A DNA stretch of 39,732 nucleotides from SAR202 cluster bacterium Casp-Chloro-G2 (GTDB lineage: Bacteria > Chloroflexota > Dehalococcoidia > Lucifugimonadales > UBA3495), in contig MUCI01000001.1 in assembly GCA_002816575.1 (NCBI GenBank), positions 1 to 39,732 of the forward strand. Direction: 5' to 3'. The notes below the pieces were generated by a model, which saw only the letters and a program-made list of their open reading frames with translations, did not search any database and was not told where the DNA came from. Position 1 is the first letter of the stretch, and each line of letters starts with the position of its first letter. The translations under genes were made by a program, and so were the position numbers. Below are positions 1 to 27,047 of this stretch, in pieces.

Positions 1-1282
1 CCCCCCCGCCGTTCTTGGACTGCATCCCGGCCATCCACTCGACGCCACGTTGGATGGCTTCGGCACGGCGGGGTTCCTCCGGACCGGGCAGTCGCACCGG
101 CTCCAGGGCCATGACCACGATGGATGCGTCGTCGATATCCGGGTATATCTGGTTATCGAACTCGAAGGACCAGCCTCCAGGCCTGGTTTTCTTGGCGCGG
201 ACCTGCCAGTCGCCGCCGGCGAATATCTGCTTGTCCATGAGCCATCTAGCCGACGTCTGGACCATGGGGTCGTCAGGCGCTATTCCAGAGTCCATCAGCG
301 CCAGTTGCGCCAGACACGTGTCCCAAACCGGCGAGACGCAGGCCTGTACGGTGCAGGTGTCCTCGTCTTCGATGGCGAAGGCTTCGAACCCCTGAAATCC
401 CTTCTTGACCGCCTCATGTTCGGGCCCATAGCCCATGACGTGGAGCGCGATCAGCGAGTAGACCCACGGTGGCTGGATCCCTGCCCAGGAACCGTCTGCT
501 TCTTGGTGTTCCAGCACCCACCGCATTATCTTGCGCTCGGCGAACCCGCGGAACGGGTGCACCGGCATGCGGTGATAGAGCGCGACCGCTTTGTCGGCCC
601 AATGGAGCGCCTTGGCCCAGCCGAAACCGCCGGTGGGTTTGGGCAAACGGTAATCTGTTCCAACGCGGCCGCCGGGATAAAGTTCGTCGATGTTGGCCGA
701 CTCGGGCACCGGGCAATACGGCCGGCGGGTCAGGATGATCAGCATTGGCGCCACGGTGGCGCGAGCCCAACTGGCGAATTCGTAGAGGTTGAACGGCGCC
801 CACGAAGGCAGGTAGATCATCTCCGGAGGCATGTTGGGCGTGCCCTTCCAGTCCCACTGGCCGAACAGCGCCAGCCAGATCTTGGTGAACACCCGGACCT
901 TGGGCATGCCGCCCTTGGATAGGATGAACTCCCGTGCCTTCACCAGCGGTTCCGACTCTGCAGAGTGCCCGGCCAGTTTGAGGGCGAAGTAACATTCAAC
1001 GGAGGTGCTAACGTCGCCGGGGGCCTCGTAATACTGGCCCCATGAGCCATCGGACCGTTGCTTACTGAGGATGTAATTGGAGACCTTGCGCCAGCGTTCC
1101 GGGTCGTGCCGTCCGGTGAAATGGCACAGCATCAGGTACTCGGCTTCCATGGTGGCGTTGGACTCCAACTCGCCCCACCAGTAGCCGTCGGGATGCTGGG
1201 TCCGGCGGAAATAGCCCTGAGACCGGAAGACCGCTTGGTCCGCCGCCTGGCCAACTTCGCTATATGTCTGTTGCGCCGCCAA
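1..1282 (-). CDS. shc: Squalene-hopene cyclase, N-terminal part (3' end beyond window)
   Basis: Converts squalene to hopene/hopanol, the first committed hopanoid step, at the membrane. The frame is open from 1282 to the window edge (about 427 codons of a usual 630-720). The catalytic DXDD motif is DIDD at residues 382-385, close to its position in characterised cyclases. QW-type repeats are visible, including SDGSWGQYY and ADGSWAGIQ. No ATG or GTG lies near the start; I chose the TTG at 1282 because it falls just after the TAA of the preceding hpnA and TGA closes the frame upstream. At the left edge the codons read Asn-Gly-Gly-Gly where this family normally has Asn-Gly-Gly-Trp, and the edge is a run of seven C, so an end-of-contig error is possible. 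Last gene of the hopanoid operon visible here. Confidence 0.93.
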   Translation of the reverse strand, partial: MAAQQTYSEVGQAADQAVFRSQGYFRRTQHPDGYWWGELESNATMEAEYLMLCHFTGRHDPERWRKVSNYILSKQRSDGSWGQYYEAPGDVSTSVECYFALKLAGHSAESEPLVKAREFILSKGGMPKVRVFTKIWLALFGQWDWKGTPNMPPEMIYLPSWAPFNLYEFASWARATVAPMLIILTRRPYCPVPESANIDELYPGGRVGTDYRLPKPTGGFGWAKALHWADKAVALYHRMPVHPFRGFAERKIMRWVLEHQEADGSWAGIQPPWVYSLIALHVMGYGPEHEAVKKGFQGFEAFAIEDEDTCTVQACVSPVWDTCLAQLALMDSGIAPDDPMVQTSARWLMDKQIFAGGDWQVRAKKTRPGGWSFEFDNQIYPDIDDASIVVMALEPVRLPGPEEPRRAEAIQRGVEWMAGMQSKNGGG

Positions 1283-1284
1283 AG

Positions 1285-2310
1285 TTAGGCTCTGCTGCTC
1301 CCCTGGGTTTTGGCTTGGCCTTTTCGGTCAACATAACCGTGTCCGGTGAACCAATCCACGGCCTGCCGTAGGGCGTCTTCGATGGGGCGCTGCGGCAGGC
1401 CCAACTCCCGGACCGCTTTTTCGCAGCTGACATAGGCGGGAGTCTTGGATGCCAGCACGCCTTCCACCGGGATGGCCGGCTCCCGGCGCAGCAGCGAACC
1501 CTCAATGAACCGGTCCGCATAGCCAACGCCGACGACCAGCCAATAAGGTACCCTGATGCGGGGCGTCGCGAGCCCCGTTTGCCGGCTCAATATGTCGAAT
1601 ATTTCCTTCAAACTCACGTTCCGGTTGCCCAAGATGTACCTTTCTCCGGACCGTCCTTTCTCCAGCGCCAGGATGTGGCCCTCTACCACGTCGGCCACGT
1701 CCACCAGATTCATCCCCGTCTTCAAGTAGGCCGGAATCTTCCGGCGGAGAAAATCCAGGATCATCCTTCCGGTGGGTGTGGGTTTAACGTCCCACGGTCC
1801 CACGGGAGCCGTCGGGTTCACCACCACCAGCGGCATGCCGTCTGCCGCCATCGCCAGTGCTTCCTGCTCCGCCTGGAGCTTGGACCGCTTGTAATAGCCG
1901 TGCAGCGATCTGGCGTCCAACGGCGTGTTCTCATCGCCCAGACCGGTTTTCGGCGTCCCCACGGTGGACACCGTGCTGGTGTAGACCGTCCGGGACACTC
2001 CCGCCTGCCGCGCCGCCGCCAGCACGTTGGCCGTGCCGGTCGCGTTGGTGCGCGACACGCCCGCCGGGTCTCTGGACCAGAAGGTGTACGCGGCAGCCAC
2101 GTGGAAAACCGCCTCGCATCCCTCCACCGCGCGGTCGACCGAACGGCGGTCCAGGATGTCGCCTTCCACCGGGATTATGCCGGTGTCCTGGATCGTTAAC
2201 CGGTTGCTGTCCGGGCGGACCAACGCCCGCACCTCGTCACCCCGCCGCCACAGCTCGCGGGCCAGATTCCCACCGATGAACCCGGTTGCGCCGGTGACCA
2301 ACACTTTCAT
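1285..2310 (-). CDS. hpnA: Hopanoid-associated NAD(P)-dependent sugar epimerase HpnA
   Basis: Extended short-chain dehydrogenase/epimerase of 341 residues. The Rossmann glycine motif TGATGFIG is at residues 6-13, a Ser/Thr-rich segment at 111-116, and the catalytic Tyr-xxx-Lys is Y140/K144 (YYKRSK). The overall pattern matches the HpnA family, which is linked to hopanoid operons; its exact substrate is not established to my knowledge. It sits 34 nt after hpnG and 2 nt before the cyclase, so all are probably on one transcript. A generic dihydroflavonol-4-reductase-like epimerase would look similar; the operon context decides the name. Confidence 0.88.
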   Translation of the reverse strand: MKVLVTGATGFIGGNLARELWRRGDEVRALVRPDSNRLTIQDTGIIPVEGDILDRRSVDRAVEGCEAVFHVAAAYTFWSRDPAGVSRTNATGTANVLAAARQAGVSRTVYTSTVSTVGTPKTGLGDENTPLDARSLHGYYKRSKLQAEQEALAMAADGMPLVVVNPTAPVGPWDVKPTPTGRMILDFLRRKIPAYLKTGMNLVDVADVVEGHILALEKGRSGERYILGNRNVSLKEIFDILSRQTGLATPRIRVPYWLVVGVGYADRFIEGSLLRREPAIPVEGVLASKTPAYVSCEKAVRELGLPQRPIEDALRQAVDWFTGHGYVDRKGQAKTQGSSRA

Positions 2311-2344
2311 GGTTAATGGCTAAGTCCAACGCGTGGGAAAAGCG

Positions 2345-3112
2345 TTAGTACGGAGCGCCCGGCGATTTGTTCCCATCTGCTTCGCCGCCGTTCCCGATCA
2401 CTCCCGCCACCTTGAGGTAGGCCAGTCCGAAATTGGTTATGACCATCTGTCCCAGTTGCAGCTGCCTCTTAAGATTCAGCATCGTGGGGATGCGCCACGG
2501 CAGCAGGACCACGTTTGTCAGCACCTTGTAGGGAGACCGGGCCAACCCCGGCAGATAGCCGGGCAGTTGCTGGTTGGCGGTGTCCAGTACAACCCTGGCC
2601 GAGAGGAACGGCACCCCGGCCTTCTGGGCCGAGTGCGCCACCCGGTAGTCCTCCATGTTGACGCTGTCCACTTGGTATTGCGCCCGCAGCTCATCGCGCT
2701 CGTCCGGCCCAGCCACCAGGTGGTCAACGGTCAGTGACCCGCCGTTGCAGACCGGCATGGAGAGGTCGAGCGCCGCCTGCTGCGCCGATTGGAGCATCTG
2801 CGGATCGGGCCTGATGCTTTGCCCGAAACCCTGAGCGGCCCCGTTCTGCAACGAGTACCGGTTGGCCAGCAACAGATCGCCGGTTTCCAATACCGGGTCG
2901 ACGCCGCCGGCCACGCCCAGGACCAGCACCCCTTCCAGGTCAGCGTTCCGGGCATCCAGCAAGGTGGCCATGGCGCTTCCTGAGCGTTCGGGTCCCACGC
3001 CCAATACCTTGAACTCCACCGGGGGATGCACCCCCGTGGTGTCTTCAATCTCGAGCAATGCGCGCCGGAGTCCGATCAACTCTTGCTCCATGCTGGCAGC
3101 TACGATCAGCAA
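2345..3112 (-). CDS. hpnG: Nucleoside phosphorylase-like HpnG (adenosylhopane nucleosidase)
   Basis: 255-residue member of the purine/uridine phosphorylase (PNP_UDP) fold. In known hopanoid pathways HpnG removes adenine from adenosylhopane, giving a ribosylhopane precursor of bacteriohopanepolyols. The GVAGG segment near residues 66-70, the VNMEDY motif whose Glu would contact the ribose, and a downstream VLDTA Asp are visible and match the family. The only standard start in the 5' part is TTG at 3112; the frame upstream closes with TAA at 3149-3151 and contains no ATG, GTG or TTG. The Shine-Dalgarno signal is poor. It lies 51 nt downstream of hpnH, as expected for consecutive steps. Confidence 0.87.
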   Translation of the reverse strand: MLIVAASMEQELIGLRRALLEIEDTTGVHPPVEFKVLGVGPERSGSAMATLLDARNADLEGVLVLGVAGGVDPVLETGDLLLANRYSLQNGAAQGFGQSIRPDPQMLQSAQQAALDLSMPVCNGGSLTVDHLVAGPDERDELRAQYQVDSVNMEDYRVAHSAQKAGVPFLSARVVLDTANQQLPGYLPGLARSPYKVLTNVVLLPWRIPTMLNLKRQLQLGQMVITNFGLAYLKVAGVIGNGGEADGNKSPGAPY

Positions 3113-3163
3113 CTCTTTGAGTCCGTTAGATCCAATGGACCGAATAGGTTAGTCAACAAAGAA

Positions 3164-4231
3164 CTAGGCAGCGGTGATGCCGCCTTTGTGGGCCGCGCCC
3201 GACTTGATCAAGGTAGCCCAGTCTTTGGGCGTCTTCAGGGCCTGGAAGATGGTGGCCGACTCGAACCCGCAGTGCATCATGCAATTCGCGCACCGTGGAT
3301 CTTTGCCCACGCCGTACCTCTCCCAGATGTCCTCGTCGAAAAGCTCTGCCACGTGTTCCACATGCTCGTCGGCCAGGGGATAGCAGGGCTTTCGCCAGCC
3401 CATCACGGTGTAGGTCGGATTGGACCAGGCGGTGCATTGATATTCCCGCTCCCCCTTCAAAAAGCTCAGGTATAGGGGGTTATTGTAGAAAGTGGCGCCC
3501 TCGGAATTCTCCGGAGACAACAACTCTTGGAACAGCTCGTGGGACTCCTGGCGGGTCAAGAACATCTCCTGCTCCGGGGCGTCCTCAAAGTCGAACCCCG
3601 GCGAGATCATGGAACCTTCAACGCCGATGTCGCTGACCATCCGGAACATCTCGGTGAGGTCGCTCACATCGCTGGTGCGGAACACGGTGGAGTTGGTGCA
3701 GACACGGTAGCCGCGGTCCAGTGCTGACTGGACGGCCTCGACAGCCTTTTTGAAGACACCCTGGCGGTCCACCGACTCGTCGTGTTTGGCTTCCATGCCG
3801 TCTAGGTGCACCACCCAGCATAGGTACTTGGACGGCGGCACCTTGTCCATCACCCGGTCTAGCAGCAGGCCGTTGGTGCAGCAATACACGAAGTATTTCT
3901 CTTCGACCAACGTGTTGATGATCTCATTGATCCTGGGATGGATGGTCGGCTCGCCGCCGGCGATGGAAACGATGGGCGCGCCGGACTCCCGGACCGCCGC
4001 CAGCGCTTGCTCAACGGGCATCATCTTATCCAGCACCGGTTTGTACTCGCGGATACGCCCGCAACCGATGCAGGCCAGGTTGCACATCTCCAGCGGCTCC
4101 AGCATGGTAACCAAAGGAAACTTCTTCCGGCCTTTGAGCTTGTTCTTCAACAGGTACGCCGCCAGTCTGGCGGATAGTTCCAGGGGTCTCTTGGCTCTCT
4201 TCTTCGTGGTGGTTATGTCGGTGGTGGCCAT
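3164..4231 (-). CDS. hpnH: Radical SAM protein HpnH (adenosylhopane synthase)
   Basis: Radical SAM enzyme of 355 residues that in known hopanoid producers adds a 5'-deoxyadenosyl radical to diploptene to make adenosylhopane, the C35 precursor. The [4Fe-4S] ligands are C50, C54 and C57 in CNLACIGC, the C-x3-C-x2-C spacing of the superfamily. A GGEP motif follows, and the C-terminal part has a second cysteine cluster (CANCMMHC) typical of HpnH. It lies between the prenyl synthase (72-nt gap) and hpnG (51-nt gap). Its presence next to a cyclase implies extended C35 hopanoids and not only diploptene. It would depend on an Fe-S assembly system such as the suf genes at 21088-27047. Confidence 0.95.
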   Translation of the reverse strand: MATTDITTTKKRAKRPLELSARLAAYLLKNKLKGRKKFPLVTMLEPLEMCNLACIGCGRIREYKPVLDKMMPVEQALAAVRESGAPIVSIAGGEPTIHPRINEIINTLVEEKYFVYCCTNGLLLDRVMDKVPPSKYLCWVVHLDGMEAKHDESVDRQGVFKKAVEAVQSALDRGYRVCTNSTVFRTSDVSDLTEMFRMVSDIGVEGSMISPGFDFEDAPEQEMFLTRQESHELFQELLSPENSEGATFYNNPLYLSFLKGEREYQCTAWSNPTYTVMGWRKPCYPLADEHVEHVAELFDEDIWERYGVGKDPRCANCMMHCGFESATIFQALKTPKDWATLIKSGAAHKGGITAA

Positions 4232-4303
4232 ATCGTAAAAACCTCGCCGGTTAAAGCTTCCTAATCGGATAGAACGTGATAGCTGATCGCCGTTGGCTTA
4301 CGG

Positions 4304-5422
4304 CTAGTATTCCCTTCGGGCGAGAAAATCGATCAAGTCTTCGGCTTCGGTTTGGGCCCAGTTGGGCAGCGAGACAGGCCTCAGGGCATCCATGGCCTGG
4401 GCGGCGGCTTCTTCCGTAAGGCGCTGGGCGTTCTCGCGGGAGCCCACCTCGTCCAATACCGCCAAAACCCGCTGGACATCGTCTTCGTCCAGCTCGTCTT
4501 GCCCGTAGATGCGTAGAAGTTCATTCATCGCCTGGCCGCTGGCCTGCTCCAGGGCATACACCACCGGATAGGACTTCTTCCTGCGCCGGATGTCGTTGCC
4601 GGTGGCCTTGCCCAGCGTGGCCTCGTCGCCCCAGATACCCAGATAGTCATCCCTGATCTGGAATGCCCGGCCCAGGTATTCACCGAATCTGGCGAAGGCC
4701 TGCACCGTGGCCGCGTCATCAGTGGCCAGAAGCGCCCCTATCTCCAGCGCGCTTCTGATCAACGCCCCGGTCTTGCAGGCAATCATATAGAGGTATTCAT
4801 CGGCCTTGATGTCGGTCCTCGATTCGAACTCGAGGTCCAGACACTGGCCCTGGATCATCTCAATGTAACTTTCCGTCAAGATGCTAGAAACCCTGAGGGC
4901 GGTTTCCGGGGCAACGCCCAGGTCCGCCACGTTCAGCATCGCCAAGTCGCCGGTGCACTGCATCGCGTTGCCGGCCGACAGGGCCTTCGGGATTCCCCAG
5001 AGGTGCCAAACCGTGGGCTGGTGGCGCCGTTCCACATCCCGGTCCTGGATGTCGTCGTGTATCAACGAGAAATTGTGGATCAACTCTAAAGCAGCTGCCG
5101 CGGGAAGGGCCTTGGTGAAATCGTTGGCCAATGCGTCGCAGGCGAATAAGCACAATGTGGGGCGCAGGGCTTTGCCTTGGGAGAGGGAGGAATCCATGTC
5201 GGCGCCCTGCTGGTCGACCCAGCCAAGATGGTAGCGGAGCAACCGGTAGGCTTCTGAGGAGCCGGTACCCGCGCCTGAGCCGGGCACAGCCTTATAGAGC
5301 TCCTGCTCCACGGAGCTTTTGTATCTGGAGAACATTCCCGGAAGCGCACCCGTCTGGGCCATTACAGGAGCCGCGTTCCGGTCCGTGCCCTCGTTGGTTT
5401 GCTGGCCGTGGTTTTGGACCAT
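4304..5422 (-). CDS. Polyprenyl diphosphate synthase (FPP/GGPP synthase type)
   Basis: Trans-isoprenyl diphosphate synthase of 372 residues that condenses IPP with allylic diphosphates. The first Asp-rich motif is D123-D124-x-x-D127 (HDDIQDRD). The second is D258-D259 followed by YLGIWGD, a form common in actinobacterial and Chloroflexota GGPP/FPP synthases and lacking the classical third Asp at that spacing. About 60 N-terminal residues precede the catalytic core. ATG at 5422 has AGAAGAGG just upstream. First gene of the hopanoid operon, so it probably supplies FPP for squalene. Chain length cannot be fixed from sequence alone; squalene synthase or HpnCDE genes are not in the window. Confidence 0.88.
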   Translation of the reverse strand: MVQNHGQQTNEGTDRNAAPVMAQTGALPGMFSRYKSSVEQELYKAVPGSGAGTGSSEAYRLLRYHLGWVDQQGADMDSSLSQGKALRPTLCLFACDALANDFTKALPAAAALELIHNFSLIHDDIQDRDVERRHQPTVWHLWGIPKALSAGNAMQCTGDLAMLNVADLGVAPETALRVSSILTESYIEMIQGQCLDLEFESRTDIKADEYLYMIACKTGALIRSALEIGALLATDDAATVQAFARFGEYLGRAFQIRDDYLGIWGDEATLGKATGNDIRRRKKSYPVVYALEQASGQAMNELLRIYGQDELDEDDVQRVLAVLDEVGSRENAQRLTEEAAAQAMDALRPVSLPNWAQTEAEDLIDFLARREY

Positions 5423-5926: not shown

Positions 5927-5955
5927 TTGACACTTCTGCCACATTAGTTTATATT
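5927..5955 (+). promoter_or_regulatory. Strong sigma-70-type promoter for the DUF1800-DUF1501-NHL genes
   Basis: TTGACA (5927-5932), a 17-nt spacer, then TATATT (5950-5955). Predicted start near 5962, leaving a leader of about 145 nt that contains a GC hairpin at 5997-6010. Confidence 0.7.
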
Positions 5956-6107
5956 TCTTCCTTGTAATCAATGTTACATAAGAGGCGTTAGAGATTGGGG
6001 GCCAACCCCCTGTCCGCTAGGCCTTCTTCATGTAACCGGGAAATTGCGGGTGGCGGGGCCGCCCAGAGAAGATAGATCCAAATCAGACTTTTCCATAGGA
6101 GGAGCAC

Positions 6108-7532
6108 ATGGCTGAACAGGATATTGCGTTGATGGCTCACCTCATGCGCCGCGCCGGTTTTGGTGCGAGCCGCGATGAGATTGAAGCCAGAGTGGCGCAA
6201 GGTTATGACAACGTAGTCCAAGAGCTGCTCAACCCCGAGACCCAGGAGGCCGTCGAGGAAGATCTGCTCATGCGCTACAACCCCTCGTACTACGAGGCTG
6301 CCGCCATCGAGAACAACGTGCAGCAATGGGTCTGGCGGATGATCAACAGCCCTCGCCAACTTCAAGAGAAGGTGGCGCTTTTCTGGCACATGATCTTCTG
6401 TGCCGGGCATAGCAAGATTGACAGCGGTCAAGAGATGGGTCTGATGGTCGACATCTTCCGCCGCAACGGGATGGGCAAATTCGACGACCTGCTTTTGGCT
6501 CTGTCGACCAATCCCGGCATGATGTACTACCTGGACAACACCGAGAGTCACAAGACCAACCTCAACGAGAACTATGGCCGTGAGCTCCTTGAGCTCTTCT
6601 CACTGGGCGTAGGGATGGATGAGGGCTTCAACTACAGCGAAGACGACGTCAAAGCCTGCGCCAGGGCCTTCACCGGTTGGAACATCGCCCCGCCCTATCC
6701 TCCGTTCCCCCACGGCCGCAGTCCTTGGGAGTTCCGCTTCGACCCCGCCGACCACGACAACAGTGAAAAGACGTTCCTCGGCGAGACCGGCAGGTGGAAC
6801 GGCGACGACATCATCAACATCGTCTGCAAGCAGCCGGCGACCGCCCGGTTCATTGCCCGTCACATGTATAACTTCTTCGTAGCCGACGAGCCGCAGGTCC
6901 CGGCATGGCGGTTGACCCCGCCCCGAGACAAGGCTGCCATCGAAGCCATGGAGAAGGCGTACTGGGATTCCGACCACTCCATTAAGGCCATGTTGGAAGT
7001 GCTCTTCACCTCCGACTTCTTCAAAGACGAGGCGGTCCGCTACGCCAAGGTTAAGAACCCCACAGAGATGGTTGTTAGCCTGCTGCGCATGACCGGCGAG
7101 TTCAAGGGCCATCAGCCCGGCCTGTTCGAATTCTCCCAGGAGCCCAAGTACATGGGCATGGACCTGATGAACCCGCCCACCGTTGAAGGTTGGCACACGG
7201 GCCGCGAGTGGATCGACTCCGGCACGTTGGTCGAGCGCATCAACTTCGCCTCCGACATCCTAGGTAACACCGAGTTGGCCGGCGTCCGCAACTTGGTGGA
7301 CCGGCTGATGTCTTTGGGCGACAAGCTCAGCCCTGAACAGTTCGTTAACGGGTGCCTGGAATTGACCGGTCCGGTGGTCGTAACTTCCGACACCATGGGT
7401 CAGTTGCTCGCCCACGCCGCCAAGGAGGGCGAACTCGCCCACGGCAGCGATGCCGAGCAGGCTGAGTTCACCCGCCGGTCCGGCGAGATGTTCCAGATGA
7501 TCGCCGCTACCGCCGAATTCCAGTTCGAGTAA
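6108..7532 (+). CDS. DUF1800 family protein
   Basis: 474 residues matching the DUF1800 family: N-terminal HLMRRAGFGAS, a central AFTGWNI segment after NYGRELLELFSLG, and LMNPPTVEGWHTGREWI near the C terminus. The biochemical function of the family is unknown; members are commonly encoded beside DUF1501 proteins, as here. No signal peptide or transmembrane segment is seen: the N terminus is charged (MAEQDIALMAHLMRRAG). ATG at 6108 follows a strong ribosome site (AGGAGGAGCAC). It is first in a probable three-gene operon, with a 63-nt gap to DUF1501. Family name is secure; role is not. Confidence 0.92.
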   Translation: MAEQDIALMAHLMRRAGFGASRDEIEARVAQGYDNVVQELLNPETQEAVEEDLLMRYNPSYYEAAAIENNVQQWVWRMINSPRQLQEKVALFWHMIFCAGHSKIDSGQEMGLMVDIFRRNGMGKFDDLLLALSTNPGMMYYLDNTESHKTNLNENYGRELLELFSLGVGMDEGFNYSEDDVKACARAFTGWNIAPPYPPFPHGRSPWEFRFDPADHDNSEKTFLGETGRWNGDDIINIVCKQPATARFIARHMYNFFVADEPQVPAWRLTPPRDKAAIEAMEKAYWDSDHSIKAMLEVLFTSDFFKDEAVRYAKVKNPTEMVVSLLRMTGEFKGHQPGLFEFSQEPKYMGMDLMNPPTVEGWHTGREWIDSGTLVERINFASDILGNTELAGVRNLVDRLMSLGDKLSPEQFVNGCLELTGPVVVTSDTMGQLLAHAAKEGELAHGSDAEQAEFTRRSGEMFQMIAATAEFQFE

Positions 7533-7595
7533 ATCAACCCCGTAGTCAGTAAATCAATCGGCTATTGGGATGCCTAAATAACGTAAGGAGTAATC

Positions 7596-8735
7596 ATGGT
7601 ATCAACCAAGAAAGATCCCGTCCTGGCAGTGCTTTCCTTGTCCGGGGGTAACGACGGACTAAACTGCGTCATCCCTCGCAACAACGGCTTCTACCGGGAC
7701 TTCCGGCCCACCTTGGCCGTGCCCGAAGATCAGATCATTCCCATCAACGATGAACTGGGCTTCCACCCCACGATGGGCCCTCTGAAGAAGTACTGGGACG
7801 AGGGCAAGCTGGCCATTTTCGTCGGCATCGGATATCCCACGCCCAGCTACTCCCACTTCCGTTCCATGGACATCTGGCACACCTGCGAGCCGGAAAAGAT
7901 TGGAACCGAGGGTTGGCTGGGACGCGCCACCAAACAGTTGGACGCCAACTCCGAGAACGTGCTGACCGCCGTTAACTTCGGCCGAGGCCTCCCCCGTGCA
8001 TTGGTCATGGACGGCGTGCCTGTCGCGTCCGTCGGTAACCTGGAGACCTATGGTCTGCTGACCGGCATCGAGGGCGAGAACCAGCGGAACGATGCGCTAG
8101 ACGTATTTGGTCGCATGTACGCCCCCGCCATCGGCACCGGCGCCGTCATGGATTACATCCACCAGACCGGCACCGACGCTCTCAAGGGCGCCGACATCCT
8201 GTCCACCGCACCGGACAAGTACACTTCCAACGTTGAGTACTCGAACACCGCTATCGGGCAGTACATGAAAAACATCGTGCAGACCCACCTCGCCGGCTTC
8301 GGCACGCGGGTTCTGTATACCACCTCGCCTTACAATGGCTTCGACTCCCACGCCAACCAGGCGCAGGCCAACGCAGGACTGTTGACCGACGTTTCCAACA
8401 CCGTGGACACGTTCATGACCGACCTGCGTGATCACGACGCCAGCGACGAAGTTACCCTGATGTTCTTCAGCGAGTTTGGCCGCCGCGTCGCCGACAATGG
8501 TTCCGGCACCGACCACGGCGCCGCCGGTGTGGCTTTCGCACTGGGTGAGCACGTCAAGGGCGGCGTCTATGGCACGTATCCTTCCCTGGACCCGGCCCAT
8601 CAGGAAGATGGCGGCAACCTCAAGTTCAACTTGGACTTCCGGTCTGTCTACTCCACCATCCTGGAAGACTGGTTCCAACTGGACGCCGAGCCCATCGTCG
8701 GCGGAAACTTCGAGCGGACCAAGTTCTTCGCCTAG
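7596..8735 (+). CDS. DUF1501 family protein (alkaline-phosphatase-like fold)
   Basis: 379 residues with the DUF1501 pattern: LSLSGGNDGLNCVIP at the N terminus, SYSHFRSMDIWHT near residues 88-100, and MFFSEFGRRVADN followed by GTDHGAAG near residues 289-310. These probable metal-ligand segments resemble those of sulfatase/alkaline phosphatase relatives. DUF1501 proteins usually carry a Tat signal; this one starts directly at MVSTKKDPVLAVLSLSGG with none, so it is probably cytoplasmic or leaves the cell another way. Ribosome site AAGGAGTAATC precedes ATG 7596. Substrate unknown. Codon use is strongly biased to C-ending codons, as in its two neighbours. Confidence 0.9.
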   Translation: MVSTKKDPVLAVLSLSGGNDGLNCVIPRNNGFYRDFRPTLAVPEDQIIPINDELGFHPTMGPLKKYWDEGKLAIFVGIGYPTPSYSHFRSMDIWHTCEPEKIGTEGWLGRATKQLDANSENVLTAVNFGRGLPRALVMDGVPVASVGNLETYGLLTGIEGENQRNDALDVFGRMYAPAIGTGAVMDYIHQTGTDALKGADILSTAPDKYTSNVEYSNTAIGQYMKNIVQTHLAGFGTRVLYTTSPYNGFDSHANQAQANAGLLTDVSNTVDTFMTDLRDHDASDEVTLMFFSEFGRRVADNGSGTDHGAAGVAFALGEHVKGGVYGTYPSLDPAHQEDGGNLKFNLDFRSVYSTILEDWFQLDAEPIVGGNFERTKFFA

Positions 8736-8781
8736 GCCTTGCTTAAAGGCTAAGCGTCCTTGATCTCGGTTACTAACGAAA

Positions 8782-8800
8782 GACGGCTGGCTGGGCCGTC
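8782..8800. other. Intergenic hairpin between DUF1501 and NHL genes
   Basis: GACGGC-tggctgg-GCCGTC, a perfect 6-bp stem with a 7-nt loop and no T-tract. Just upstream, GCCTT-gctta-AAGGC follows the DUF1501 stop. Could be an RNA processing or stability element tuning expression of the downstream gene. Confidence 0.4.
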
Positions 8801-8862
8801 ACGCCGGCCACTGGTCAGGCTTGGGGCGGCCCAGCTCACAACGCGACGAAGAGGTAAAAAAT

Positions 8863-9867
8863 ATGGCAACACATTTCTTCGGTCTAACCAACCGAACATT
8901 CCGCTATGACCATTCCGTCGGCCGGGCAGAATTCGCCGGAACTGGCTTCCGGAACGCCACCGACATGGCCATCGCGCCCGACGGTACCGTGTATATCTGC
9001 AACCGGTCCTATGAGAATCGGCCCGACGGCGTGCACGTGACCGCTCTCACCCTGGACGAAGAGTACATCACCGAATTCGGCGGCTACGGCGAGGCCGACG
9101 GCGAATTCATGTGGCCCACGTCCATCGCTCTCGACAGTAAGGGTAACCTTTATCTGGCCGACGAGTGGTTGAACCGCATCACCAAGTTCACCAGCGACGG
9201 TGAGTACGTCAGCAAGTGGGGAACCGCTGGTTCTGGCGACGGCGAGCTGAACGGACCTTCCGGCATGGCCATCGACGCCGACGACAACATGCTTCTCGTC
9301 GACAGCGGCAACAACCGGGTCCAGAAGTTCACCTTGGACGGCAAGTTCATCAGCAAGTTTGGGTCGAAGGGCTCCGGCGACGGAGAATTCAACCTGCCTT
9401 GGGGCATTGCGCTGGACAACGATGGTCACATCTACATCGCCGACTGGCGGAATGACCGCATCCAGAAGTTCACCGCCGACGGCCAGTGGGAAGCCTCCAT
9501 CGGCTACTCTGGCAGTGGCGTTGGTCAACTGAACCGCCCCAACGGCGTGGCGGTTGACGCGGATGGCGACATCTACGTTGCCGACTGGATGAACAACCGC
9601 GTACAGGTGTTCGCTCCCGACGGACGCTACGTCGCCCAGTTCAAGGGCGAGGCTGAGCTTTCCAAGTGGGGCAGGGACAAGCTTGGGTCCAACCCCGACA
9701 TGATTCGGCAGCGCTCCCTTGCTTACAACAACGATCCCGATTTCGAGAGGAAACTGGCCCATCCCTGCGCCGTCAAGATTGACCCTCAGGGCCGGATCGC
9801 CATCATCGACCACACCCGCAACCGGATTCAGGTTTACGTCAAAGAAACCAATCCCGTGCTGGTCTAG
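8863..9867 (+). CDS. NHL-repeat beta-propeller protein
   Basis: 334 residues made almost wholly of NHL repeats. About five blades of roughly 47-48 residues carry the pattern GSGDGEF-x-P-x-GIA-x-D-x-G-x-IYIAD-x-x-N-x-RIQKF. Blades around residues 78-220 are the most regular; the C-terminal blade (HPCAVKIDPQGRIAIIDHTRNRIQVY) follows a longer insertion at about 265-295. Such propellers act as protein- or ligand-binding scaffolds or as lyase-like enzymes; no catalytic set can be assigned. No signal peptide is apparent. ATG 8863 was chosen because GAAGAGGTAAAAAAT lies just ahead; the frame is also open from a TTG at 8821. It ends the DUF1800-DUF1501-NHL group. Confidence 0.88.
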   Translation: MATHFFGLTNRTFRYDHSVGRAEFAGTGFRNATDMAIAPDGTVYICNRSYENRPDGVHVTALTLDEEYITEFGGYGEADGEFMWPTSIALDSKGNLYLADEWLNRITKFTSDGEYVSKWGTAGSGDGELNGPSGMAIDADDNMLLVDSGNNRVQKFTLDGKFISKFGSKGSGDGEFNLPWGIALDNDGHIYIADWRNDRIQKFTADGQWEASIGYSGSGVGQLNRPNGVAVDADGDIYVADWMNNRVQVFAPDGRYVAQFKGEAELSKWGRDKLGSNPDMIRQRSLAYNNDPDFERKLAHPCAVKIDPQGRIAIIDHTRNRIQVYVKETNPVLV

Positions 9868-9886
9868 CCGGTACCCATCATCGAAC

Positions 9887-9921
9887 AAAAAAGAGCCGGG
9901 GCATTGCCCCGGCTCTTTTTT
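9887..9921. terminator. Bidirectional intrinsic terminator
   Basis: A 16-bp perfect inverted repeat with a 3-nt loop: six A, a GC-rich stem (GAGCCGGGGC and its complement), then six T. It ends the NHL transcript on the plus strand and can end the mogA-side transcript on the minus strand. Confidence 0.95.
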
Positions 9922-9975
9922 GTTTCCTGACATCGGGCGACTTTCGCTCCAATACCTCTTGGGGGAAGCCCAGCC

Positions 9976-10308
9976 CTACGGGCCTTCCGGCATTCCTCCG
10001 TCGATCCACGCCACTATCTCGTCGATCTCCTCGGGCTTGAGGAACGGTCCCCGCAACGGCATCTTGCCGGATGTGCCGACGCTCCGGGCCAACGACTTGA
10101 CCAGGTTGGTCTCTCTGGCGGGGATGCCCGGTTCGATGGAACGGAGTCCCGAGAGCACGGAGTCCTTGAGTTCTTGGGCCGTCTCCCAATAATAGGCATG
10201 GATGCCGGGCAACGGCTGCCGGCCCCAGCGCTCGACCCAACGGGCCATGATGCCGTCCAGAATCTCCTTCACCCGGGGCCAGTAAACAACTTGTACTTCT
10301 TCGCTCAT
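9976..10308 (-). CDS. Small protein of unknown function with a cytochrome-c-like C-terminal tail
   Basis: 110 residues from ATG 10308 (a GTG two codons upstream is also in frame). The C-terminal stretch LKPEEIDEIVAWIDGGMPEG resembles the last helix of cytochrome c-like domains in planctomycete-type proteins, but there is no CXXCH heme motif, no cysteine and no signal peptide. The N-terminal half has an aromatic-rich segment (MARWVERWGRQPLPGIHAYYWETAQEL). It follows mogA after 42 nt, so it may be co-transcribed with it. I do not recognise a named family. Confidence 0.6.
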   Translation of the reverse strand: MSEEVQVVYWPRVKEILDGIMARWVERWGRQPLPGIHAYYWETAQELKDSVLSGLRSIEPGIPARETNLVKSLARSVGTSGKMPLRGPFLKPEEIDEIVAWIDGGMPEGP

Positions 10309-21087: not shown

Positions 21088-22545
21088 ATGACCACACCTA
21101 GGGTCATTTCAAGAGACGCCACTTCCAGTGAGTTGGATTCCGACTACAAGTGGGGTTTTACAATTGACATCGGTTCCGATCTGGCCCCCAAGGGGCTCAG
21201 CGAGGAAATCGTCCGGCTCATCTCGGCCAAGAAGGAAGAACCCGAGTGGATGCTGGAGTGGCGGCTCAAAGCCTTCCGCCAGTGGCTGAAGCTCAAAGAA
21301 CAGCCGCCGAAATGGGCCAACGTGGAATATCCGCCCATCGACTACCAGGATATCTACTACTACGCGGCCCCCAAGAGTGACGCGCCTAAGAGCCTGGACG
21401 AGGTTGACCCGGAGATTCTAGAGGCTTTCGAGAAGCTGGGCATTCCCTTGGCGGAAAGGGCCAAACTGGCCGGTGTTGCCGTGGATGCCGTGGTGGATAG
21501 TGTGTCGGTGGCCACAACCTACCAGGACACGCTGGAGAAACAGGGCATCATCTTCTGCTCCATGAGCGAAGCGGTCAAGAAGCACCCGGAGTTGGTCCAG
21601 AAGTACCTGGGCTCGGTGGTGCCCTACTCCGACAATTTCTATGCCACGCTAAACTCCGCCGTGTTCACCGACGGATCCTTCGCCTACATACCCAAAGGCG
21701 TGCGCTGTCCCATTGAATTGATGACCTACTTCCGCATCAACCAGGCCGACTCCGGCCAGTTCGAGCGGACCCTGATCATCGCCGACGAGGGCTCCTACGT
21801 CAGCTACCTGGAAGGCTGCACCGCCCCCGCCAGAAAGACCCACCAGCTTCACGCTGCGGTGGTCGAGTTGGTGGCCTTGGACGACGCCGAGATTAAGTAT
21901 TCCACCCTGCAGAACTGGTTCCCCGGCGACAAGGACGGCAACGGCGGCGTCTACAACTTCGTGACCAAACGCGGCAAAGCGGCCAAGAACGCCAAGATAT
22001 CGTGGACCCAGGTTGAGACCGGATCGGCCATCACCTGGAAGTACCCCAGTGTCATCTTGGAGGGCGATAACTCGGTGGGCGAGTTCTACTCGGTGGCCCT
22101 GGTTAACAATCACCAGCAGGCCGACACCGGCACCAAGATGATTCACATCGGCAAGAACACCCGCAGCACCATCGTCGCCAAGGGCATCTCAGCAGGCCAG
22201 GGCAACGCCACCTACCGGGGCTTGGTTAAGGTGCTGGCTTCGGCCGACGGCGCCAAGAACTTCACCCAGTGCGACTCCCTACTGGTTGGAGACAAGTGCG
22301 GGGCGCACACGGTCCCCTACATCGAGGTGAAAAACCCGACGGCCCAGATGGAGCATGAGGCGTCAACCTCCAAGGTCAGCGACGACCAGCTCTTCTACTG
22401 TCAGCAGCGGGGCATGTCGGTCGAGGACGCCCATTTCATGATAATCAACGGCTTCTGCCGAGGCATCTTCCAAGAGCTTCCGTTCGAATTCGCCATGGAG
22501 GCGTCGCAGCTCTTGAAGGTCAGCCTGGAAGGAGCAGTGGGATAA
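21088..22545 (+). CDS. sufB: Fe-S cluster assembly scaffold SufB
   Basis: 485 residues, standard SufB length. With SufC and SufD it forms the SufBC2D scaffold on which Fe-S clusters are built from persulfide sulfur. Family marks: [15 protein letters not shown], and C244 in [13 protein letters not shown], matching the conserved Cys that accepts sulfur in E. coli SufB. The C-terminal [20 protein letters not shown] is also typical. The frame is open to 21037, but ATG 21088 has CCAGGAGC at the right distance. It abuts sufC with no gap. Confidence 0.97.
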
Positions 22546-23334
22546 ATGGCTACTGAAACTAAGAAATCGACGCCCCTGTTGTCGATCAAGGGTCTGACCG
22601 CGTCGGCGGGGGACCTGAAGATCCTTAAGGGCATCGACCTAGACATCTACCCGGGCGAAGTGCACGCCATCATGGGGCCCAACGGCTCCGGTAAGAGTAC
22701 GCTTACCAATGTGCTGGCCGGCCGCCCCGACTACACGGTCACCGGCGGCGAGGTCTTGTTCGAGGGCCAAAGCATCTTGGGACTGGAGCCGGAGATCAGA
22801 GCACGCATGGGCCTGTTCCTCGCCTTCCAATACCCGCTGGAACTTCCCGGGGTACGCGCCTGGCAATTCCTCAAGGCGGGCGTGGATGCCAAACGGCTTC
22901 ACAACGGCCAAGAAGAGATGAGCGCCCGGGAATTTGACCAGATGCTCAAAGCCAAGGTCGCGGAGGTCCAGATCGACCCCGAACTGGTTCGGAGGGCGGT
23001 TAACGAGGGATTCTCCGGCGGCGAGAAGAAACGGAACGAAGTCCTCCAGATGGCCGTGCTTGACCCTAAGCTGGCTCTCCTGGATGAGACCGATTCCGGC
23101 CTGGATATCGACGCCCTGCGCATCGTTTCCGATGGTGTGAACCTCCTTCGCTCCCCAGATAAGGCGGTTGTTCTGGTGACCCACTACCAGCGGATACTCA
23201 ACTATATCTCACCCAATCACGTTCACGTGCTATACGACGGTCGAATCGTCCGGTCCGGCGGCCCTGAACTGGCCCACGAGCTGGAAGAAAAGGGCTATGA
23301 CTGGATCAAAGACCTCGTCGACGCCACCGTATAG
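22546..23334 (+). CDS. sufC: Fe-S assembly ATPase SufC
   Basis: ABC-type ATPase of 262 residues that drives the SufBCD scaffold; it is soluble and not a transporter. Walker A is GPNGSGKST (residues 44-52), the signature FSGGEKKRNE, and Walker B LALLDETDSGLD, where SufC-type DETDSGLD is diagnostic. ATG 22546 immediately follows the sufB TAA; GGAAGGAG lies in the sufB end. Confidence 0.97.
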   Translation: MATETKKSTPLLSIKGLTASAGDLKILKGIDLDIYPGEVHAIMGPNGSGKSTLTNVLAGRPDYTVTGGEVLFEGQSILGLEPEIRARMGLFLAFQYPLELPGVRAWQFLKAGVDAKRLHNGQEEMSAREFDQMLKAKVAEVQIDPELVRRAVNEGFSGGEKKRNEVLQMAVLDPKLALLDETDSGLDIDALRIVSDGVNLLRSPDKAVVLVTHYQRILNYISPNHVHVLYDGRIVRSGGPELAHELEEKGYDWIKDLVDATV

Positions 23335-23358
23335 CCGCCCCGGGGATAAACAGACCGT

Positions 23359-24753
23359 ATGACGACTGCGCCAGCCAAATACGCCCACTACCTTGCCGAC
23401 TTCCAGTCATTGACTGAGGGGCCTGGCGCCGAAGCTCCAGCATGGCTCAAGAGCGCCCGGGATAACGCTTGGACCAAGTTCGCCGCGACCGGTTTCCCCA
23501 CCGCGCGGCGCGGCAATGAACGCTGGAAGTACACCAACGTCGGCCCCATCGCCAGGACCGATTTCGGATACCCCTTGGCCCCTGCGCCGGCCGACGGCTC
23601 CGAAGGATTGGTTCCTTCGTATCAGGTTTCAGGGCAGACCGTTTTTGACCTGATTTACGTTGACGGCGTGTATTCACCCGGGCTTTCTTCGCCTGCCTTG
23701 GACGCGAGCGGCGTGGTTGCCGCCAGCCTGGCCGTGGCCGCCGGCAATGATAGCCTCGATCTGGAAGGCCAGGTAGGGCGTTACGCCCCGCCGGACGACG
23801 ACGGGTTCGCCGCGCTGAACACCGCTTTCCTCCGGGATGGCGCCTACGTGAACGTGGCCGACGATCATGCCGAGAAAGTGGTTATCCGCATCTCTTACAT
23901 CACGTCTCAGAGCGAAGACGCGAACCACAAAGTAACCTATCCCCGCACCATGATCGTCGCCGGACGCAACACCGACATCACGGTGGTAGAGAGTTACCGG
24001 GGCCCCCAAGAAAGTGTCTACTTCACCAACGCGGTCACCGAGATATCGGTCCGTGAAGGCGCCAAGCTCGACCACTACCGCCTGCTCTTGGAAGGCGGCA
24101 AAGCCTTCCATGTTGGCACCAGCCGGGTTATCCAAGAGAAGGACAGCAGCTTCAGCTCGGCGTCCTTCGCCTTGGGAACTACCCTGGCCCGGAACGACCT
24201 TGAAGTGCTGCTCGACGCCCCTGGCGCGTACTGTTCCCTGAACGGACTCTACCTGACCGCCGACAACCAGCACATCGACAACCTGATCAGCATCGACCAC
24301 GCCAAGCCCAACTGTACCAGCCGCTTGAACTACAAGGGCATCTTGGACGGCAAGTCCCGGGCGGTGTTCGGCGGCACGGTGATGGTGCGCCGCGACGCCC
24401 AGAAGAGCGATGCCGAGCAGACCGACAAAAACCTGATACTGTCCAACTCGGCTGAGGTCGACAGTAAGCCCAGCCTTCTGATCTATGCCGACGACGTGAA
24501 GTGCAGCCACGGTGCCACCGCCGGCCATATCGACGCCGACACCCTGTTCTACCTCCGCAGCCGGGGCCTAGACCTGGACACGGCCAGCCGGATGCTGGTC
24601 CATGCCTTCGCCAGTGAGATCATCAACACGGTGAACCTGGAACCGCTCCAGGATTACCTGAACACACTTTTCGCGGCGGCGATCCCAAACAAAGCTCTGC
24701 CTATCGCCGGTCTCGTGCCTTCCCGACGCGCCAAAGCAGCGGGGGATAAATGA
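23359..24753 (+). CDS. sufD: Fe-S assembly protein SufD
   Basis: 464 residues, paralogue of SufB and partner in the SufBC2D complex. N-terminal helical part, then the right-handed beta-helix core. The conserved segment DDVKCSHGATAGHID contains C382 and H384, matching the Cys/His region at the SufB-SufD interface where clusters form. FSSASFALGTTLARND and YLTADNQHIDN are typical SufD strands. 24 nt after sufC; its TGA overlaps the sufS ATG (ATGA), indicating coupled translation. Confidence 0.95.
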   Translation: MTTAPAKYAHYLADFQSLTEGPGAEAPAWLKSARDNAWTKFAATGFPTARRGNERWKYTNVGPIARTDFGYPLAPAPADGSEGLVPSYQVSGQTVFDLIYVDGVYSPGLSSPALDASGVVAASLAVAAGNDSLDLEGQVGRYAPPDDDGFAALNTAFLRDGAYVNVADDHAEKVVIRISYITSQSEDANHKVTYPRTMIVAGRNTDITVVESYRGPQESVYFTNAVTEISVREGAKLDHYRLLLEGGKAFHVGTSRVIQEKDSSFSSASFALGTTLARNDLEVLLDAPGAYCSLNGLYLTADNQHIDNLISIDHAKPNCTSRLNYKGILDGKSRAVFGGTVMVRRDAQKSDAEQTDKNLILSNSAEVDSKPSLLIYADDVKCSHGATAGHIDADTLFYLRSRGLDLDTASRMLVHAFASEIINTVNLEPLQDYLNTLFAAAIPNKALPIAGLVPSRRAKAAGDK

Positions 24754-26000
24754 CCACGGGAGACCGGAGCACATCGGCGGCGGCGTTCGACGTGCATAAG
24801 GTGCGGGACGATTTCCCCATCTTGAAGCAACAGGTAAACGGCAACCCGCTGGTTTACCTGGACAACGGGGCCACGTCCCAGAAACCCCAGTCGGTGATCG
24901 ACGCCATCGTGCGCTACTACACCACCGAGAATTCCAACGTGCACCGGGGCGTCCATACCCTCAGCCAGCGGGCCACCGACGACTACGAGGGTGCGCGGGC
25001 CAAGATTCGCAAGTTCATCAACGCTGGCGACGACCGGGAGATTATCTTCACCAGGAACACCACCGAGGGGATCAACCTGGTGGCCCACACCTACGCCAGG
25101 CAGCACGTGGGTCCCGGCGATGACATCATCGTTTCCAACATGGAACACCACTCCAACATCGTCCCCTGGCAGATGTTGTGCGAAGAGAAGGGAGCCAACC
25201 TTAAGGTTGTGCCCATCGACGACACCGGCGAGTTGCTGATGGACGAGTATGAGCAGATGCTCAGTCCCCGTACCAAGCTGGTCTCCATAACCCATGTTTC
25301 CAACGCCCTGGGCACGATCCTGCCGGCGGCAAAGATCGTCGAACTCGCCCATGCCCACGGCGCTCCGGTACTGCTGGACGGCGCTCAGGCCGTGCCCCAC
25401 ATGCCGGTGGACATGCAGGAACTGGACTGCGACTTCTACGTATTTTCCGGCCACAAACTGTTCGGCCCCACGGGCATCGGCATCCTCTACGGAAAGGCTG
25501 AATTGCTGGAAGCCATGCCGCCATTCATGGGCGGTGGGGACATGATCAAGTCGGTAACCTTCGAAAAGACGATCTACAACGATCTGCCGTACAAGTTCGA
25601 GGCTGGAACGCCAGACATCGCCAGCGCCATCGCCCTGGGCGCCGCCGTGGATTACGTGACCAACCTGGGCTTCGATCAGATCACGGCCCACGAAGAGGAA
25701 CTGCTCCGTTACGGCACCCAAGCGCTGACCTCCATCGCGGGGGTGCGATTGGTCGGCACCGCCCCTCATAAAGCCGGGATACTTTCATTCGTGATGGACA
25801 AAGCCCATCCCCACGACATCGGCACCATACTGGACGAACAGGGAATCGCCATCCGCACCGGCCATCACTGCGCCCAGCCGGTGATGCAGCGGTTCCGGAT
25901 ACCTGCCACCGCCCGTGCCTCATTGGCCTTCTACAACACGAAAGAAGACATTGACGCCCTGGTGAAAGGCATTGACCGCGTACTAGAGGTTTTCAGTTAA
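24750..26000 (+). CDS. sufS: Cysteine desulfurase SufS
   Basis: PLP enzyme of 416 residues (class V aminotransferase, group II desulfurase) that takes sulfur from cysteine. The PLP lysine is K236 (FSGHKLFGPTG), the substrate-histidine region is EHHSNIVPW, and the persulfide cysteine is C374 in RTGHHCAQPVMQRF. It overlaps sufD by 4 nt and sufU by 1 nt, so desulfurase and sulfur-transfer protein are made together. Confidence 0.97.
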   Translation: MTTGDRSTSAAAFDVHKVRDDFPILKQQVNGNPLVYLDNGATSQKPQSVIDAIVRYYTTENSNVHRGVHTLSQRATDDYEGARAKIRKFINAGDDREIIFTRNTTEGINLVAHTYARQHVGPGDDIIVSNMEHHSNIVPWQMLCEEKGANLKVVPIDDTGELLMDEYEQMLSPRTKLVSITHVSNALGTILPAAKIVELAHAHGAPVLLDGAQAVPHMPVDMQELDCDFYVFSGHKLFGPTGIGILYGKAELLEAMPPFMGGGDMIKSVTFEKTIYNDLPYKFEAGTPDIASAIALGAAVDYVTNLGFDQITAHEEELLRYGTQALTSIAGVRLVGTAPHKAGILSFVMDKAHPHDIGTILDEQGIAIRTGHHCAQPVMQRFRIPATARASLAFYNTKEDIDALVKGIDRVLEVFS

Positions 26001-26449
26001 TGGCCGGCTTGAGTGACCTTTACCAGGAGATACTCCTGGAACATAACAGCAAACCCCGTAATTTCCGCGAGGTCGTTGAACCGACCCAGTCCGCCGAGGG
26101 ATTTAACCCGCTCTGCGGCGACCAGATCACCCTCTATCTCAAAGTTGTTGACGGCGTGATTGACGACGTGGGATTCCAGGGGACCGGCTGCGCTATCTCG
26201 CGGGCTTCCGCCTCGATGATGACCCAGAGCATCAAGGGCCAGAGCCTGGAGAAGGCCGAAGAGATATTCGACGCCTTCCATCACATGATTACCGAGCCTG
26301 GCGGTGAGCTGGACCTGGACACGCTGGGTGACCTGGAAACACTGTCGGGGGTCAACGAATACCCCACGCGCATCAAATGCGCCATCTTGGCCTGGCACAC
26401 CATGAAGGCCGCGTTGGCCGGCGACAGCGACGGTATCACCACCGAATAA
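26000..26449 (+). CDS. sufU: SufU-type zinc-dependent sulfurtransferase
   Basis: 149 residues. SufU takes persulfide sulfur from SufS and passes it to SufB in SufE-lacking bacteria. The zinc site is complete: C39 and D41 (NPLCGDQ), C64 (GTGCAIS) and C127 (RIKCAIL). The SufU insertion between the second and third cysteine (about residues 92-120) distinguishes it from IscU. ATG 26000 shares a base with the sufS TAA. Confidence 0.94.
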   Translation: MAGLSDLYQEILLEHNSKPRNFREVVEPTQSAEGFNPLCGDQITLYLKVVDGVIDDVGFQGTGCAISRASASMMTQSIKGQSLEKAEEIFDAFHHMITEPGGELDLDTLGDLETLSGVNEYPTRIKCAILAWHTMKAALAGDSDGITTE

Positions 26450-26588
26450 GGCCCGTGGCGCGCTACCTGGGCAGGCACCGCCCCGTGACGGGTTGTGATC
26501 TCCGCGCCGTTCTTTCCCCTCACGCATGATGCGTTTCGGCTTCCCTGTGCTAAGCTGGTTACGATTCTTACTTATGGCCGACTAACCG

Positions 26589-27047
26589 ATGCCTCAACAG
26601 CCCGACGTCTCCCTCGATGGCCTCTACGGCGACCTGGTCATGGACCACTACCGTAACCCCCGCAACCGCACTCCCCTGGATGACGCGGATGTGGAGGCTG
26701 AAGAGTTCAACCCGTTCTGCGGCGACCGCGCCACCTTCCAGCTCAGTTTGGACGACGATGGCATGGTGGCCGGCGTCAGCGCACGCTCGGAAGGCTGCTC
26801 CATAATCCAGGCGGCCACATCCATGCTCTCCAGCCTGTTGCCGGGCAAGTCCCTGGGCGAAGTGGAGGAACTGGGTACCAGTTACCGGGAATCCATGCGG
26901 AACGGCCTAAAAGACGACGGTGTGGACGGTCTGGGCGACCTGCTGGCCCTTCAGGTGGTGCGCCAGTACCCGGTGCGCATCAAGTGCGCCCTGCTGCCGC
27001 TGGTGGCTCTGGAGGAAGGCATCAAAGCCTACCGGTCCAAGTCATAA
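26589..27047 (+). CDS. Second SufU/NifU-like protein
   Basis: 152 residues, paralogue of the preceding gene. All four zinc/cluster ligands are kept: C44 and D46 (NPFCGDR), C70 (SEGCSII) and C133 (RIKCALL). It diverges elsewhere, with an acidic N-terminal part (DDADVEAEEF). The 139-nt gap and lack of a clear ribosome site before ATG 26589 suggest different translation from the upstream genes. It could be a second sulfur-transfer protein or a variant scaffold; the sequence does not decide. Confidence 0.9.
   Translation: MPQQPDVSLDGLYGDLVMDHYRNPRNRTPLDDADVEAEEFNPFCGDRATFQLSLDDDGMVAGVSARSEGCSIIQAATSMLSSLLPGKSLGEVEELGTSYRESMRNGLKDDGVDGLGDLLALQVVRQYPVRIKCALLPLVALEEGIKAYRSKS

Follow-up and report, generated by a model that had tools for sequence, protein, structure and literature searches.

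What does a run of DUF1800, DUF1501, and NHL-repeat genes do in a cell when none of the three products carries an export signal? DUF1800 and DUF1501 are widespread, uncharacterized families, and the question is raised here by a 39,732-nucleotide stretch of DNA (the window) from a SAR202-type Chloroflexota MAG. The deep ocean holds large SAR202 populations, and the named loci among DUF1501 relatives, which are up to 94% identical, are Dehalococcoidia or SAR202 MAGs. The reading preferred here, with a probability of roughly 0.5, is that the cassette encodes a cytosolic metal-dependent ester hydrolase and two partners, multiplied by cassette duplication. Three genes that are co-oriented, inherited together, and free of credible export signals would constitute a cytosolic enzyme module.

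The genes form a tandem plus-strand run at positions 6108–9867 of the window, with a promoter on the 5′ side and a terminator on the 3′ side, as the earlier note described, and all three Pfam matches lie above the curated cut-offs. The first gene (6108–7532, plus strand) encodes a DUF1800 protein of 474 amino acids that matches PF08811 with an E-value of 2e-103 and 347 bits against a cut-off of 26.1, covering positions 1–418 of the 419 in the profile. The second (7596–8735, plus strand) encodes a DUF1501 protein of 379 amino acids whose match to PF07394 (E 6e-21; 75.5 bits, cut-off 27) has a best stretch covering only profile positions 228–347 of 390; its N-terminal motifs were aligned by MAFFT. 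The third (8863–9867, plus strand) encodes an NHL-repeat β-propeller protein of 334 amino acids, matched by PF01436 in four stretches (E 1e-42; 142 bits, cut-off 20). Signal peptides are missing from all three. The ribosome sites, read directly, are as good as had been claimed: AGGAGG at 6097–6102 (plus strand) is the Shine–Dalgarno sequence of DUF1800 and is kept in orthologues as AGGAG(G), while AAGGAG at 7585 and AGAGGT at 8850, both on the plus strand, serve DUF1501 and NHL. The C-ending codon bias ascribed to the three genes is present but genome-wide, not particular to them. Their CAI falls only at the 66th–72nd percentile among non-cassette genes, and ribosomal genes have no distinct CAI in this genome, so the suggestion that the operon is well expressed is not supported.

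The same triad recurs widely. DUF1800 occurs in 33 of 40 relatives, with up to 19 copies per genome, and the window's own genome has seven DUF1800 places and six DUF1501 places. The fetched neighbourhoods of relatives contain 64 DUF1800 places, 54 with both partners, eight with NHL only, and two with neither (loci overlap partly between collections, and raw counts are not all independent). An NHL neighbour is therefore found at 62 of the 64 DUF1800 loci surveyed, and the third gene, whose conservation beside the pair the earlier note had left to a neighbourhood survey, proves to be a conserved member. The set used for order and distances was reduced to 60 complete cassettes that are distinct from one another. 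In 58 of them the order is DUF1800–DUF1501–NHL, and the pairwise evolutionary distances computed for each of the three proteins are correlated with those of the other two (r 0.89–0.91; permutation maximum 0.25, p < 0.0005). The conserved order and correlated distances together indicate that the cassette duplicates and evolves as one unit. The genes flanking it vary between copies, and the flanks surveyed contain neither a fourth constant gene nor a clue to the substrate. The copies probably arose by whole-cassette duplication and then diverged in substrate range; paralogue duplication with substrate divergence has already been proposed for other SAR202 families.

Several individual copies show features of their own. 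A SAR202-type DUF1501 gene in the window's genome (L050, 9413–10696) has no DUF1800 or NHL neighbour that could be found, and the contig ends 505 bases upstream of it. In one paralogous cassette set (L176 12307–12756 and relatives) a Fur-family regulator gene follows, which may hint at metal control of those copies, and in another set a menaquinone-biosynthesis gene follows.

Structural modeling of DUF1501 (pTM 0.84, mean pLDDT 77) predicts an alkaline phosphatase-superfamily fold. VIA aligns the model with a nucleotide pyrophosphatase/phosphodiesterase at a Z-score of 17.9 (rmsd 3.1, 240 aligned), and the best Foldseek matches are sulfatases, with an E-value of 1.9e-6. The earlier description of DUF1501 as phosphatase-like thus agrees with both searches at the level of the fold only. 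Sequence searches returned no solved relatives for either DUF1501 or DUF1800. Across 116 NHL-type and 22 other DUF1501 sequences, one of them incomplete at D20, nine residues are invariant: D20, S86, H87, D250, H252, E293, R296, D306, and H307. NHL-type sequences add the near-invariant H95, C97, and H231, and C97 (112 of 116) is confined to this form. The formylglycine sulfatase motif C/S-x-P-x-R is missing; the corresponding region reads YPTPSYSHFR, with S86 of SHF as its invariant residue. A complete superfamily site would have a two-metal ligand set around a Ser/Thr/Cys nucleophile. Candidate residues for it are invariant, but the motif that follows the final long strand of the core is E-F-G-R in place of the usual D-H, which makes metal ligation uncertain.

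In the proposed mechanism, catalysis would fall to DUF1501, which would hydrolyze phosphate or sulfate esters in a metal-dependent reaction. Its likely nucleophile is S86, and the metal or the substrate would probably be bound by D20, D250, H252, E293, D306, and H307. The stable partners of DUF1501 would be DUF1800 and the NHL propeller, probably contributing substrate recognition or a second step. Alternatively, the module could still be cytosolic but DUF1501 a degenerate alkaline phosphatase fold kept for binding or assembly, with DUF1800 and the propeller doing the work. This alternative is unlikely, even though the eight of 64 loci with a DUF1800–NHL pair and no DUF1501 indicate that DUF1501 is not always core, leave NHL as the more constant partner of DUF1800, and are joined by the departure of E-F-G-R from canonical metal ligands. 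The polar residues common to Tat-type proteins are, however, all kept in the 116 NHL-type sequences, which would be unusual for a dead enzyme.

The two putative partners differ in how readily their structures can be placed. The DUF1800 model is confident (pLDDT 84) and mostly helical, as the earlier note anticipated. Foldseek returned nothing for it with an E-value below 0.001 and VIA no Z-score above 4.7, so no fold was assigned, and the lack of a match to the model does not prove a new fold. The NHL protein has relatives in the PDB (TRIM71, Thin, and Pizza6), and its C-terminal part, beyond the repeats, carries the conserved motif LSKWGxDKLxSNPDM. The protein scores 185 bits against the ScyF model NF035926, below the curated cut-off of 350. 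Anti-phage defence models match neither DUF1800 nor DUF1501, and the NHL repeats match the defence model PD-T4-6 only weakly, probably through the propeller alone.

The cytosolic assignment depends on the absence of export signals, which were assessed with rules for hydrophobicity and twin arginines. In the window, in-frame stops lie three codons 5′ of the DUF1800 and DUF1501 starts, making a longer start impossible for either and ruling out mis-annotation there; the NHL frame runs further upstream, where it has no hydrophobic N-terminus. The DUF1501 start sits directly before the first core strand, and neither DUF1800 nor DUF1501 has an RR-hydrophobic segment before its domain. The maximum 19-residue hydropathy of the three proteins is 1.14, versus 2.26 for a lipoprotein-like control N-terminus from the same window. 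Given the upstream stops and the low hydropathy, the absence of signals noted from the start is genuine for the window copy.

The pattern is kept across relatives and is linked to the NHL gene. None of the triad DUF1501 or NHL proteins surveyed has a credible export signal: 140 of 140 NHL-linked DUF1501 proteins and 155 of 155 NHL proteins are unflagged. A separate count flags one NHL-linked DUF1501, by way of the frame upstream of its conserved start, and the flags on 5 of 149 DUF1800 proteins all lie in that same position. Close orthologues hence offer no credible signals that would point to a mis-started copy in the window. DUF1501 proteins without an NHL neighbour carry Tat-like N-termini in 18 of 22 cases, the other four being the SAR202-type orphan L050 and the divergent L232, L233, and L235. 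Similarly, DUF1800/DUF1501 pairs of other Chloroflexota are mostly Tat-signalled and have no NHL neighbour. TatC was detected in 34 of the 40 relatives. The missing signals therefore do not stem from a lineage-wide loss of Tat, and the route is available yet unused by the cassette. TatC was not found in the window's genome, which fits its completeness of 75%.

In a maximum-likelihood tree, all NHL-linked DUF1501 proteins and the orphan L050 group as a single clade with 100/100 support. A single clade argues for one switch rather than many independent ones, so the link between the NHL gene and signal loss reflects essentially one evolutionary switch. Three previously unexamined genomes, chosen by sequence similarity alone, were all NHL-linked with a signal-less DUF1501, as predicted, and two genomes (G104 and G192) contain both Tat-type and NHL-type pairs. 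Judged by DUF1501 sequences, the signal-less triad is a clade distinct from the Tat-type pairs, with its own conserved residues and many copies per genome.

Export by a leaderless or piggy-back route, followed by an envelope role like that of the Tat-type relatives, is improbable. It would accord with the Tat signals of the nearest relatives and with the presence of Tat in the clade, but a signal-bearing partner to carry the others is missing, as DUF1501 and NHL have no signals and the few DUF1800 flags fall upstream of the conserved start; the restriction of C97 to the NHL form also argues against it. That the operon merely joins three unrelated housekeeping genes by chance is very improbable and already contradicted, because the same triad stands at many loci per genome with variable flanks and the trees of its three proteins mirror one another, even though flanking synteny at the window locus is also kept within the genus.

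The preferred reading, a duplicated cytosolic hydrolase cassette, extends to the control of the window copy, which has its own promoter, a palindrome in the initial transcript, and a structured leader. The sigma-70-type promoter at 5927–5955 (plus strand; TTGACA 5927–5932, TATATT 5950–5955) has 11 of 12 matches. The bare match is weak, with five sites in the region versus 1.7 ± 1.6 in shuffles. Both hexamers and their spacing are kept in 13 orthologues, lending weight to the TTGACA-17-TATATT assignment made earlier. At the expected transcription start lies an inverted repeat, TGTAAT-CAAT-GTTACA (5963–5978, plus strand), also kept in 13 orthologues, which may be either a DNA operator or a 5′ mRNA hairpin. 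The pattern TGTAAYNNNNRTTACA has a single match in the whole 1.9 Mb genome, which rules out the palindrome as the operator of a regulon.

The predicted 92-nucleotide leader (5960–6051, plus strand) forms a long imperfect hairpin with arms GUUACAU...AUGUAAC and is supported by covariation across 13 genomes, with 93% of cells paired versus 34–54% in slid controls and six pairs showing compensatory changes. Its covariance model finds one place per genome in these 13 genomes, only at the cassette locus. The matches span the host genus and one neighbour genus, with convincing matches nowhere else, and this confinement rules out a widespread riboswitch. Rfam contains no match at gathering scores, only chance-level hits with E-values of 3.8 or more. 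Family-level orthologues retain just the CCTTRTAAY portion of the leader region, and the 5′ CCUU of the leader could alternatively pair with the Shine–Dalgarno sequence. An extended version of the preferred reading, possible but doubtful, is a hitherto undescribed three-protein cytosolic enzyme machine of DUF1501, a new-fold DUF1800, and NHL, of which each cell could hold as many as about 19 versions for different dissolved organic esters, with the window copy under its own leader RNA.

At the other end of the cassette, an intrinsic terminator occupies 9883–9925 (plus strand; −36.3 kcal/mol, z −8.95). The earlier note was right about its presence and short on its length, as the stem is 20 bp with a 3-nucleotide loop rather than 16 bp. 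This stem is symmetric and would also serve the convergent minus-strand gene. That gene (9976–10308), which is small and conserved, has no Pfam match and 40 members in the fetched loci, and adjoins a MoaB-like gene. Upstream of the cassette and divergent from it, the minus strand at 2–5422 carries squalene-hopene cyclase, HpnA-like epimerase, phosphorylase-type, radical-SAM-like, and polyprenyl synthase genes, a set that is likely to serve hopanoid biosynthesis. It is kept beside the cassette in the genus and missing there in several family members, which makes a functional link to the cassette doubtful. Further along, positions 21133–27047 contain genes resembling a Suf-type iron–sulfur cluster assembly operon, judged by translations only.

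Among known systems, ScyF-type NHL proteins (NF035926) share NHL repeats with the cassette, whereas the cassette protein falls below their cut-off and has no signal peptide. Nucleotide pyrophosphatase/phosphodiesterases and sulfatases share the fold of DUF1501, but at about 10% identity, and DUF1501 is without C/S-x-P-x-R and differs in the motif behind the final long strand of the core. A search of the open-access literature found no paper linking NHL to the DUF1800/DUF1501 pair. Tat-bearing DUF1501 beside DUF1800 has been described near bacterial chitin synthase genes (PMC5122149). Such Tat-type pairs have the same Pfam families, gene order, and invariant DUF1501 polar set as the cassette; they differ in mostly carrying twin-arginine signals and lacking an NHL gene, whereas the cassette has NHL, no signal, and a clade of its own.

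The closest precedent comes from SAR202 itself. We take COG4102 to be DUF1501, COG5267 to be DUF1800, and COG3391 to be the propeller. These three COGs are expanded in SAR202, correlated in number, and uncharacterized (Saw et al. 2020, PMC6946804), and they are very probably the same three families as the cassette. The likeness lies in the expansion and the correlated numbers; the difference is that the main text of that study describes no physical unit, neither the cassette nor the word operon appearing there. The cassette thus traces a gene expansion that had been noted in SAR202 without an explanation to a single physical unit, and the contrast between a Tat-type pair without a propeller and a signal-less triad, together with the repeated cassette, offers a direct route to the function of these families.
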